Below are positions 3,798-33,687 of a stretch of 37,910 nt of DNA, piece after piece (the stretch's first letter is position 1; every line of letters starts with the position of its first letter). Both the position numbers and the translations under genes were made by a program. This DNA comes from an uncultured bacterium (GTDB lineage Bacteria > Patescibacteriota > Minisyncoccia > Phycocordibacterales > UBA5272). The notes below the pieces were generated by a model, which ran no database searches, was not told the DNA's origin, and saw only the letters and a list, made by a program, of their open reading frames with translations. The stretch spans positions 1-37,910 of the forward strand of contig CAIQWN010000030.1 of assembly GCA_903875555.1 (NCBI GenBank). The letters run 5' to 3'.

Positions 3798-4835
3798 ATG
3801 AAAAAATACGAGTTTCGAGAATTAAAGGGTGATGAAATTTTTGAGCCGAGTGATATTTGCGTAAGTGTTCCATTTACTCAGGCGGGGTTTTATGGAGACT
3901 GGCAAAAGACTCTCGGTAGAACAGTGAGAAGATTTTTGATAAATAAAAACGGTGAGACTGTTACATATTTTCAACTCGTTAAATATCCGCTGATATTTAA
4001 AAAAAGTTATTTATATATTCCATACGGACCAGTTACAAAAGATTTTTCTGAGGATCTTTTAAAAAGTTTGAAAGAAGAATTAAAGAAAATTGCGAAAAGT
4101 GAAAACGCAGTTTTTGTTCGTCTTGATTTTACTCCTGCTATACATAACGATTCTCACACAAAAACTTTATCAAAAATTTTTTACAAAGCTCCAATCTACA
4201 CATACAAAGCAGCGTACTTCCAACCTCGCGCGGAATGGTTTCTTGATCTTACAAAAACAGAAGACGAGATTTTGAAAGAGATGCACGAAAAGACAAGATA
4301 CTCGATTCGTCTTGCAGAAAAGAAGGGGATAAAAATAGAAATAATTTCATCGGACTTCACCCAATACTTTGAAACATTTTATGAAATAATGTCTACAACA
4401 TCTTTGCGTAACGGGTTTCACTTACACAGCAGAGAATATTATAAAAAAGTTTTTCAAAATTTGAAATCAGAAAATTCATATCTTTCAATTTCAAAATTCG
4501 ATGACAAAATATTGTCGATTTATTTGGTGATTCATTACGGAGGAATTGCGAACTATGTTTATGGTTGTTCGAGTAATGAGCACAGGGAACTTGCGCCAAC
4601 ATATCTCGCTCATTGGAAAGCGATACAGCATTCAAAGAGTCTTGGTGCAACGGCATATAACTTCGGAGGAATTTCTTTCGGTGAGGTTTATAAAAAGATA
4701 AATATGGACAGTCTAACAACTTTCAAAAAGAAGTTTGGTGGTTACGAAGTAATTCATTCTGATTTCTACGATGTAATTGTGGAACCGTTTTGGTATCATT
4801 TGTATAATTTTAGAAAACTTATTAAGAATAAATAA
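3798..4835 (+). CDS. FemAB/FemX-family peptidyl (aminoacyl) transferase
   Basis: The 345-residue protein matches FemABX enzymes, which use aminoacyl-tRNA to add amino acids to the peptidoglycan stem peptide. Visible landmarks are an N-terminal GNAT-like half with PYGPV (about residue 78), the EMHEKTRYSIRLAEKKGI segment (about 160-177) typical of FemX, and a second GNAT half with YGCSSNEHRELAPTYLAHW and YNFGGI. The MurE-like gene starts 4 bases after its stop, so the pair is an operon for wall precursor building. The sequence suggests a soluble cytoplasmic enzyme. The amino acid that it transfers cannot be read from the sequence. Confidence 0.88.
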   Translation: MKKYEFRELKGDEIFEPSDICVSVPFTQAGFYGDWQKTLGRTVRRFLINKNGETVTYFQLVKYPLIFKKSYLYIPYGPVTKDFSEDLLKSLKEELKKIAKSENAVFVRLDFTPAIHNDSHTKTLSKIFYKAPIYTYKAAYFQPRAEWFLDLTKTEDEILKEMHEKTRYSIRLAEKKGIKIEIISSDFTQYFETFYEIMSTTSLRNGFHLHSREYYKKVFQNLKSENSYLSISKFDDKILSIYLVIHYGGIANYVYGCSSNEHRELAPTYLAHWKAIQHSKSLGATAYNFGGISFGEVYKKINMDSLTTFKKKFGGYEVIHSDFYDVIVEPFWYHLYNFRKLIKNK

Positions 4836-31000: not shown

Positions 31001-31029
31001 TTGACTTTTTGTTATATGTATGCTATTAT
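31001..31029 (+). promoter_or_regulatory. Sigma70-type promoter of the DGR variable-protein gene
   Basis: TTGACT (31001-31006), a 17-base spacer ending TGC, and TATTAT (31024-31029). It predicts a leader of about 65 bases before the variable-protein gene. Unlike most genes here, this one has both a long leader and a Shine-Dalgarno sequence. Confidence 0.65.
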
Positions 31030-31100
31030 ATTGAAGTCAAATTCTTGACACCTGCTTAGGCAGTTTTAAACAAGTTGTACCTTGATAAAGGAGAATGATG

Positions 31101-31883
31101 ATGCCAGATAATAATCTGATCACATCAAAGCAACAAACACGTATTGTAGACCTTGTTTCAGCAGAAGCAAGGAATGTAACCCTCGAAGCACTCGACAAGA
31201 TGAATCTCGAAAGTACGGTAGCGCAAGATAATATCATCACCAAGGGTGGCGATTTTCAAGCACTGCTTACCACTGGTTTTGCTTCTGTCGTGGCTTCTGC
31301 TCTCAACAAGATGTCTGGGCGGAAACACCCACAAACTGAACCGCTCGAGCAATACTTCGCTGAAGTTTTGGGTTACACCCTCGACCTTTCTGGTGTTGTG
31401 TTTCCCGAAAAGGATGGCTTTGTCACTTACGTGGCGGTGCCGTCTGACCTTGATGAAGACCAAATCTTCAGTCGTATCACTACGCACTTCAAGGTTGGGC
31501 AATACGCATACCAGTCGCCAGTCGCAAGCAACATCAACCGCGAAGTAAAGCAGAAACGTCCGCAAGGGCTTTATGTCTTCGCACACGCAGGTGGTGACGA
31601 GCCTGATGCGAAGCATCTCGGCAAGTCCTACGACGACGCAATGGCGGTCAACATGACTTTCATGAATCCCAAGGAATATCTCTTGGCCACAGGCTTCCAT
31701 CGCTTTATGAACAAGGACCACTTCATGGATGTGAAAGGATGGACTCGCACATCCTCTTTGTGGTCCGCTGGCTACTTGGTGGACGGTTACTGGGATCCGA
31801 GCGATGGCGAGCTTGACCTCTGCAATGGCTATCGTGCCCATCGCGGTTCGGGCAGCGGTCCTCGTGAGCTGTTTCTGGGTTAA
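31101..31883 (+). CDS. DGR variable (target) protein
   Basis: A 260-residue cytoplasmic protein (no signal peptide or membrane helix) whose last 40 residues (220-259) are encoded by the variable region. Of three consecutive ATGs (31095, 31098, 31101) I take the third, 7 bases after AAAGGAG. The C terminus begins LWSAGYLVDGYWDPSDGELD and is likely the exposed face of a C-type-lectin-like fold, as in other DGR targets; YLLATGFHRFMNKDHF lies before it. Relative to the template, 15 residues vary (223, 225, 228, 232, 235, 237, 239, 241, 244, 246, 247, 249, 251, 252, 257). The gene is clearly more GC-rich than its neighbours, suggesting transfer. The ligand is unknown. Confidence 0.85.
   Translation: MPDNNLITSKQQTRIVDLVSAEARNVTLEALDKMNLESTVAQDNIITKGGDFQALLTTGFASVVASALNKMSGRKHPQTEPLEQYFAEVLGYTLDLSGVVFPEKDGFVTYVAVPSDLDEDQIFSRITTHFKVGQYAYQSPVASNINREVKQKRPQGLYVFAHAGGDEPDAKHLGKSYDDAMAVNMTFMNPKEYLLATGFHRFMNKDHFMDVKGWTRTSSLWSAGYLVDGYWDPSDGELDLCNGYRAHRGSGSGPRELFLG
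31758..31877 (+). repeat. DGR variable region (VR)
   Basis: These 120 bases align without gaps to 32162-32281. There are 18 differences; at 17 the template has A and the VR has G (9), T (4) or C (4). The one exception is G at 31815 versus T at 32219. The matching ends are TTGTGGTCCG and GTTTCTG. Confidence 0.93.
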
Positions 31884-31931
31884 CTTATACTTAACCCTTC
31901 TGACTTTTACCCTTGTGTTTGGGTTTGGGTC

Positions 31932-31970
31932 AAAAAGCTTCGCAATTCATTGCGGGGCTTTTTTCTTTTT
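31932..31970 (+). terminator. Terminator after the variable-protein gene
   Basis: AAAAAGCTTCGCAA pairs with TTGCGGGGCTTTTT, followed by T-rich sequence. It should largely separate variable-protein mRNA from template RNA. The 190 bases between it and the template repeat contain no gene that I can support. Confidence 0.75.
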
Positions 31971-32161
31971 TATATACTAAAAATGGTGATTGTAAAATCG
32001 ATCTAGCAATTAATTTTTTGCGTGATAACGATTTATTGCCAAAAGAAACTGCCTGCATCATAGTATGTATTTATATATACAACACATTGCTCCCAGTGGA
32101 GGAGAAACACAGAAAATTTGGAAACAGACAATCGGTGAACAGACGCTATGATGTAGAACAA

Positions 32162-32281
32162 TTGTGGTCCGATGGCAACTTGGTGAACGGTTACTGGAAT
32201 CCGAGCAATGGCAAGCTTTACCTCAACAATGGCAATCGTGACAATCGCAATTCGGACAACGGTCCTCGTGAGAAGTTTCTG
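32162..32281 (+). repeat. DGR template repeat (TR)
   Basis: The 120-base donor copy of the VR. It contains 31 adenines, 17 of which differ in the VR. Read in the VR frame it has ten AAC/AAT codons, which cannot mutate to stops by adenine changes in the first two positions, as is typical of templates. It is noncoding here, 343 bases upstream of the RT start. Confidence 0.93.
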
Positions 32282-32286
32282 CACAT

Positions 32287-32311
32287 AAACCCGACTACTT
32301 GGTCGGGTTTT
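32287..32311. terminator. Hairpin at the TR 3' flank / avd terminator
   Basis: AAACCCGAC and GTCGGGTTT form a 9-bp stem with loop TACTTG, 6 bases after the TR, and overlap the last avd codons. It can terminate avd or mark the TR RNA for the RT complex. Confidence 0.6.
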
Positions 32312-32682
32312 GTGTTATATATTTTATCCATCCATTTGTCATTTTTGATATTTCAATTAACACGCCTTCAATTCTAAAATATGTTTTATCGTTTATGATT
32401 TTTAATTCATATTCTGTGCGAATTAAATGTTTTAATAATTCAAGTGATGTTCTTACGTGTTTAAGTTTTTCTAATTTATCGATTTTGTTTTCAAATGACG
32501 CACTTATAACATTATTCATAACTTCGAGAGTTATGTTTTCTATATGAGTATGAATACCAAGTTTATCTCGTTTCGTTAATTTGTTTCCAGTTTGATACAC
32601 TGTTGCATATAATTGTTTTACAATATGAATAATAGAGATATCAGTAGTTGTTCGGGGGGGGGGTAATTCTAACCTGTTCCAT
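32295..32682 (-). CDS. avd: Avd-like four-helix-bundle DGR accessory protein (frameshifted by G/C run)
   Basis: Accessory variability determinant: a basic four-helix protein that binds RT and template RNA. The conserved frame (from about 32650 down) reads IIHIVKQLYATVYQTGNKL, then RDKLGIHTHIENITLEVM, LLKHLIRTEYELKIIND and the family-typical C-terminal IEISKMTNGWIKYI. From ATG 32682 (MEQVRITPP) the frame enters the ten-base C run and hits a stop after 13 codons; with nine C it continues into the conserved frame, giving 128 residues. As assembled, only a GTG at 32600 would give a 101-residue form without the first helix. An extended -10 (TGTTAAACT) lies 9 bases before ATG 32682, supporting that start. 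Opposite orientation to the RT is unusual. Confidence 0.75.
32608..32613 (+). promoter_or_regulatory. -10 box before the RT start
   Basis: TATAAT ends 11 bases before ATG 32625, close to the leaderless-type spacing of the neighbours. It supports 32625 as the RT start and lies inside avd on the other strand. Confidence 0.4.
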
Positions 32683-33687
32683 AATGTTTCTAGTTTAACA
32701 AATCTTTTCGATGCTTGGAATGAATTTAAAAAAGGAAAGAGAAAAAAGAAAGATGTTGCACTCTTTGAGCTTCATTTAGAAGAAAATATTTTTAATTTAC
32801 ATAAAGAACTTCGTAATAAAACATACAATCATAATCCATACGAAGATTTTTATGTTTGTGATCCGAAGCGAAGACATATTCATAAAGCAAATATTAGAGA
32901 TAGGGTAATGCACCAAGCACTTTTTAGAGTTTTGTATAAAGTGTTTGATAAACATTTTATTTACGATTCGTATTCATCGAGAAATGATAAAGGAACACAT
33001 GCTGGTGTGATTCGTCTTAATAATGCTATACGAAAAGTAAGTAAGAACTGGAAGAAAACAGTGTGGGTTCTTAAGTGTGATGTGAGAAAATTCTTTGATA
33101 GCATCGATCATAATATTTTACGAGAGTTGATTTTACAAAAAGTAGACGATAAAGAAATTCTTTGGCTTATAGATATTATATTTTCAAGTTTTGAAAAAGA
33201 AAAATGTAAAGGACTTCCGCTTGGGAATGTTACAAGTCAGTTATTTGCAAATATTTATTTAAACGAACTTGATCAATTCGCAAAACACACTCTAAAGGCA
33301 AAACATTATTTTAGATATTGCGATGATTTTATAATTGTTCATGAAGATAAGAAGTTTTTGGAAATTGTAATTAGAAAGATCGAAGAGTTTTTGAAAAATA
33401 ATTTAAAACTTGAACTTCATCCAAACAAAGTAGAGATACGCAAAGTTTCTCAGGGTATAGATTTTTTAGGTTATGTGATTTTACCTCACGCTATTGTGCT
33501 TCGTACAAAAACTAAAAGAAGAATATCTAGAAAAATTAAAGAAGGTGTAAAACTTTATAACAAAAAACAAATCTCAAAAGAATCTTTTAGATCTATGATT
33601 ACATCGTATCTTGGTGTTTTTTCACACTCTAGATCAAGGAGGGCGACTGATTATTTAAATGAGATCGTTAATGTTTTATCAATTTAA
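32625..33687 (+). CDS. DGR reverse transcriptase (frameshifted by a ten-G run)
   Basis: Copies the template RNA into cDNA with adenine errors. Conserved order in one frame: LTNLFDAWNEFKKGKRKK, VCDPKRRHIHKANIRDRVMHQ, LKCDVRKFFDSIDH (first catalytic Asp), LPLGNVTSQLFANIYLNELD (LGxxxSQ, typical of DGR RTs, at 33220-33240) and FRYCDDFIIVH (YCDD, 33316-33327), then DFLGYVILPH. From ATG 32625 the frame reaches stop TAA right after the ten G (32654-32663); with nine G it joins the RT frame, giving 353 residues with SGGGNSNLF. No ATG, GTG or TTG lies in the RT frame between the run and 32908. So the gene is off as assembled unless slippage or frameshifting occurs. Confidence 0.85.

Follow-up and report, generated by a model that had tools for sequence, protein, structure and literature searches.

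A diversity-generating retroelement of Patescibacteria with a probably phase-variable simple repeat at the avd/reverse transcriptase junction

The stretch of DNA analyzed here, called the window in the following, is 37,910 nt long and carries a diversity-generating retroelement (DGR) comprising a target gene that ends in a variable repeat (VR), a template repeat (TR), an avd gene and a reverse transcriptase (RT) gene (Table 1). Eight promoter-like sites were counted in the region against a chance expectation of 7.1, among them the one upstream of the target gene. The palindrome at the end of the VR is a candidate homing hairpin, a role suggested by analogy with known DGRs. The hairpin directly downstream of the TR is possibly the end of the TR RNA; the sister species has one as well. 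The G+C content is approximately 50% in the target gene and the TR, 26-29% in avd and the RT gene and 32% in the window.

Table 1. Coordinates of the DGR features in the window.
Feature	Position	Strand	Remarks
Promoter-like site of the target gene	31001..31029	+	TTGACT-17-TATTAT; consensus match only
Target gene	31095..31883	+	ORF; 262 aa, variable C-terminus
VR	31758..31877	+	3' end of the target ORF
Palindrome at the VR end	31877..31897	.	GGGTTAA-7 nt-TTAACCC; 7-bp arms; candidate homing hairpin/cruciform
Terminator-like hairpin 3' of the target gene	31932..31963	+	
TR	32162..32281	+	
Hairpin directly 3' of the TR	32287..32310	.	overlaps the avd 3' end
avd	32295..32682	-	ATG 32682 open only at a G tract of n=9 or 12; closed as assembled
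RT gene	32625..33687	+	ATG 32625 open only at a G tract of n=9 or 12
G10 tract (C10 on the avd strand)	32654..32663	.	proposed phase-variation switch common to avd and RT

VR and TR are direct repeats located 404 nt apart, which align in register over 120 nt with 85% identity. Seventeen of the 18 differences are at TR adenines, the remaining one being T to G, although adenines make up just 31 of the 120 TR positions (hypergeometric p=2e-11). On the VR side none of the 18 sites carries an adenine. The first-pass annotation had described exactly this, 120-nt repeats with 17 of 18 differences at TR adenines and a VR that ends the target ORF. The same bias was found in two sister loci of the same genome, where all TR/VR differences (15 of 15 and 12 of 12) are at TR adenines. 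A symmetric scan of 135 related loci placed 2178 of 2310 differences at a TR adenine, with adenine at 4176 of 16306 positions. In the sister species (L144:359-1237) the VR is apparently one base shorter than the TR in an alignment made by eye, and due to this loss the orthologous target gene would continue in another frame.

The target protein represents a small family, with matches in seven of the 297 genomes of the order and none in the libraries that were tried. An AF2 model of the protein has a pLDDT of 82, and its C-terminal half, which includes the VR strands, is confident. No significant match was obtained when the model was used for a fold search of the PDB; relatives of the formylglycine-generating enzyme came up, but with E values no better than about 1. 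The target may plausibly adopt a C-type lectin fold. Searching the rest of the genome with the VR DNA for additional targets gave nothing above chance. A distant target-like paralogue is encoded on contig C4 (L014:6952-7710; 31% identity over part of its length), and no direct repeat of the TR/VR kind was found near it.

The identity of the two machinery proteins was confirmed by profile and structure searches. Avd matched NF033474 ("diversity-generating retroelement protein Avd", 5e-12), Pfam bAvd (3e-9) and PHROG 3206 (1e-11); the scores for NF033474 and bAvd are below the curated cut-offs, the query having been the truncated open frame of avd. With a profile built in this analysis, Avd proteins of related loci scored 94-165 bits. 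The RT contains the motifs PLGNVTSQ and YCDD and matched RVT_1 (8e-24) and PHROG 1423 (4e-117), and known DGR phages, for example ANMV-1 and ACA1, are among the sources of the annotated phage RTs closest to it. Among solved structures, those of the 8ub7 series, which represent the RT of the Bordetella phage DGR, are closest to the RT of the window (1.6e-48). Thus, both the Avd-like protein and the DGR-type RT with LGNVTSQ and YCDD that had been proposed from the DNA alone are borne out by these matches. The orientation of avd, on the minus strand and head-to-head with the RT gene, was absent from that first description.

The start codons of avd and RT face each other across the G10 tract, which is part of the 58-bp overlap between the 5' ends of the two genes and is the sole G/C run of at least seven in the window. 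As assembled (n=10), neither avd nor the complete RT gene has an in-frame ATG, GTG or TTG start, because the tract shifts both frames. The first in-frame starts are a GTG at 32600 for avd and an ATG at 32908 for the RT, both within the conserved domain; the frame of the RT domain is open from 32665 onwards. We varied the length of the G tract, and nothing else, in silico from n=8 to 12. Nine or 12 Gs give full-length reading frames for both Avd (128/129 aa) and the RT (353/354 aa), whereas with eight, ten or 11 both terminate after 13-24 codons. Since the tract is located within the coding 5' ends of both genes, its length modulo 3 sets the two frames together. The first-pass annotation had called the DGR complete, and every part that it named is indeed present; "complete" has to be qualified, however, because the G tract puts both machinery genes out of frame in the assembly.

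The genome from which the window stems (714 kb, 96% complete; a Ca. Nomurabacteria MAG being its closest named relative by RT search) encodes three DGR RTs, one on the contig of the window (C30) and one each on contigs C7 and C20. In the two sister DGRs the features are arranged as in the window, target(+) TR(+) avd(-) RT(+); their junctions contain a G9 tract, and avd is open in both. Tracts of at least nine Gs occur exactly three times in the genome, once per DGR junction, for which the chance is about 2e-11, and chance was rejected as an explanation. The sequence of this genome was read in the stretches around DGRs. A C8 run is present elsewhere on contig C7 (L015:8844), outside any DGR. 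The sister RTs (L006:5164-6237 on C7 and L007:5288-6394, minus strand, on C20) carry an in-frame insert between RT motifs that encodes a palindromic repeat of the VIPAHAGIQ...LDSRMRGNDK type, which the RT of the window lacks.

Relatives were collected by RT searches at the level of genus, order and phylum and in GTDB contigs, together with stretches from 80 further places. This yielded 155 non-identical loci, 152 of them with a recognizable avd. In 149 of these 152 avd is encoded on the strand opposite to the RT gene, the other three being same-strand outliers. A perfect simple repeat is present at the junction in 119 of the 149 head-to-head loci, a proportion that applies to the best matches to the RT of the window and does not carry over to DGRs generally; as the loci are mutually related, the counts are not independent. 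The repeats are G7-13 (101 loci), GA9-18 (9), GT10-16 (4) and CT10 (2), and one locus each has CTGA8, ATTG7 and TGTCC8. These seven unit types have lengths of 1, 2, 4 and 5; junction repeats with units of 3 or 6 were not found in any of the 149 loci (thresholds of 5 and 4 copies). In the 101 loci with a homopolymer it is always G on the RT-sense strand and never C, although the scan accepted C runs.

A repeat scan over 96 loci (410 kb) detected only one other repeat of this strength, which again is at a DGR junction: locus L039 contains two avd/RT junctions approximately 2.4 kb apart (at 1072 and 3452), with G8 and G9 and flanks that are 82% identical. Length differences between homologous junctions are thus seen even inside one locus, and further pairs are G6/G9, G7/G10, G10/G12 and GA12/GA10. 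The assembly has an N inside the tract in two loci (L073, L093), which is at most a hint of a length mixture. On the RT tree, which was calculated with FastTree and has many weak branches, the repeat class changes at least 22 times; GT and CT account for two changes each, and the loci with CTGA and ATTG are sisters. This turnover indicates that the conserved trait is an unstable repeat at this site and not its letters. Only one relative was found in viral contigs, and since it is without a repeat, this is mainly a cellular system in the sample studied.

To score the phase, the frame of the Avd domain was fixed and an upstream ATG was sought in all three phases. Of the 119 repeat loci, 97 have an upstream avd ATG in one phase, 19 in two and three in none. 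The assembled sequences comprise 33 loci with avd open and 86 with avd closed, somewhat fewer open loci than random phase predicts (33 vs 45, p=0.02). In contrast, an in-frame avd ATG is present in 28 of the 30 loci without a repeat (Fisher p=3e-11), the two closed exceptions having an N-gap in the tract and a short GA5. Among the closed loci, four of 86 have an upstream GTG or TTG, and 15 of 86 have a downstream ATG before the core that might rescue Avd. Nearly all of them, 83 of 86, keep an ATG in a neighboring phase, while surplus phases hold one in 19 of 238 cases; the median distance between ATG and repeat is 24 nt in closed loci (neighboring phase) and 29 nt in open ones. Closed loci also retain the Avd domain (median 108 model positions matched). 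A TR/VR pair was found in 137 of 143 testable loci, and the fraction of TR adenines that are mutated in the VR is 0.54 for ON, 0.53 for OFF and 0.54 for loci without a repeat. The retained ATG, the retained domain and the equal VR divergence fit a reversible switch and not a dead gene.

How the RT gene depends on the repeat differs between loci. In 80 of 119 an ATG of the RT gene itself follows the repeat, which leaves avd as the only frame-switched gene there. Such an ATG is lacking in the remaining 39, of which 32 have one for the RT on the upstream side of the repeat; in 30 of these 32 loci, where both genes depend on the repeat, RT and avd share an open phase, a number that does not count independent events because the coupled loci are partly related. 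Both the locus in the window and that of the sister species, which has G11 and is likewise closed, belong to this coupled type.

From these sequence comparisons we conclude that the window carries a Patescibacteria DGR in which the machinery of retro-mutagenesis is very likely phase-variable. For the phylum as a whole, it is highly probable that the repeat in the avd/RT overlap acts as a contingency locus, which would switch the DGR mutator heritably and reversibly in sub-populations, in many lineages for both genes together; one localized hypermutation system would thereby control another. Tract length would change through slipped-strand mispairing at replication, resulting in a mixed population. 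Some cells would make RT and Avd and copy the TR into the VR with adenine-specific errors, and cells with a closed tract would be locked and inherit the current target gene unchanged. The OFF state would be reversible because the remainder of avd and RT stays intact. Loss of Avd, in the window together with loss of the RT, would be expected to halt cDNA synthesis. The Bordetella phage DGR requires Avd to synthesize cDNA (restated in PMC6642488), so an avd-only frame switch should suffice to stop mutagenesis.

Several other explanations were weighed against a frame switch. Off-frame lengths could be homopolymer errors of sequencing or assembly, with the true tract always in frame: all data are consensus assemblies, mostly metagenomic and with one genome per species, homopolymers are error-prone, and two tracts contain an N. 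However, closed loci make up 72% of the repeat loci, which is well beyond plausible consensus error at runs of 9-12, and GA, GT, CT, CTGA and TGTCC repeats are off-frame too. Errors would also leave the conservation and the turnover of repeats at one site unexplained, and we therefore regard assembly error as unlikely to be the sole cause. Programmed slippage, ribosomal or transcriptional, might instead yield full-length proteins where the tract is off-phase, homopolymers being slippery templates. The required shifts are both +1 and -1 among the loci, though, and the non-homopolymeric GA, CTGA and TGTCC occupy the same site, so slippage appears very improbable. Slightly less improbable than error, but still improbable, is a repeat that acts mainly on the initiation of transcription or translation, via promoter spacing or the RT leader, and not on the frame. 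The RT ATG that follows shortly after the repeat in the 80 loci mentioned above, which places the repeat in or near the RT leader, would agree with this; the avoidance of unit lengths 3 and 6 and the single phase of the avd ATG at nearly every locus would not. The two modes could coexist.

Two further readings, both very improbable, were rejected. The repeat might be kept for the sake of an N-terminal peptide that Avd requires, and Pro-Pro-Pro is indeed encoded at the site in most loci. But the other repeat units give unrelated peptides, LSLSLS in GA loci and HTHTHT in GT loci, the peptide is unconnected to any ATG in most assembled copies, and loci without the repeat are also without the peptide; moreover, uninterrupted CCC codons persist even in AT-rich genomes. 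The DGR of the window and the other closed ones could also be decaying pseudogenes, as the absence of a start in both ORFs as assembled might suggest. Against such decay stand the intact domains, the ATGs retained in the neighboring phase and a VR divergence equal to that of open loci. In addition, the closed state is scattered over the tree with 29 changes.

A switch set by repeat length would be a simple means by which cells with a DGR could shield a target that already works from their own mutator. If the frame switch is true, most cells would hold the current version of the target while a minority explores, and a slip of one base would lock a winner. For practical purposes, automatic annotation of these genomes will often call avd absent or the RT truncated, the copy in the assembly being in a closed phase.

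DGRs are known in Patescibacteria, to which DGR clade 2 is restricted (Roux et al., 2021, PMC8144416), in agreement with the remark of the first-pass annotation that DGRs were already known in CPR genomes. That annotation expected possible novelty in the target, ligand or gene arrangement; the evidence points instead to the conserved repeat at the avd/RT junction, a probable switch, of which the annotation made no mention. The DGR in the window resembles clade 2, an assignment that rests on the host phylum, in its RT and Avd, in adjacent TR and VR with adenine-specific differences, in the VR at the 3' end of the target and in the host phylum itself. It differs in that avd is antiparallel to the RT gene, and a junction repeat switch is not mentioned in the accessible part of PMC8144416. 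With the phage DGRs of Bordetella BPP-1, Vibrio 58.5 and Pseudoalteromonas ACA1 it shares Avd and the TR/VR logic, and the RTs are homologous along most of their length (32-40% identity). In these phages, in contrast, avd is on the strand of the RT gene where it is annotated, and no comparable simple repeat was found near the RT in seven phage records with related RTs.

Phase variation by simple sequence repeats (SSRs) is a classic mechanism of contingency loci (reviewed in PMC11868660), and the main text of that review does not name retroelements. In the open-licence literature, which is without some key DGR surveys, we found no paper linking DGRs with homopolymers, SSRs or phase variation; the combination of a DGR with a repeat switch is thus likely, though not certain, to be new. 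Like the contingency loci of that review, the junctions described here carry tracts of mono-, di-, tetra- and pentanucleotide units close to the coding 5' end that would set ON and OFF by frame. They differ in what would be switched, a targeted mutator instead of a surface structure or a methylase, and in that one tract serves two overlapping antiparallel genes.
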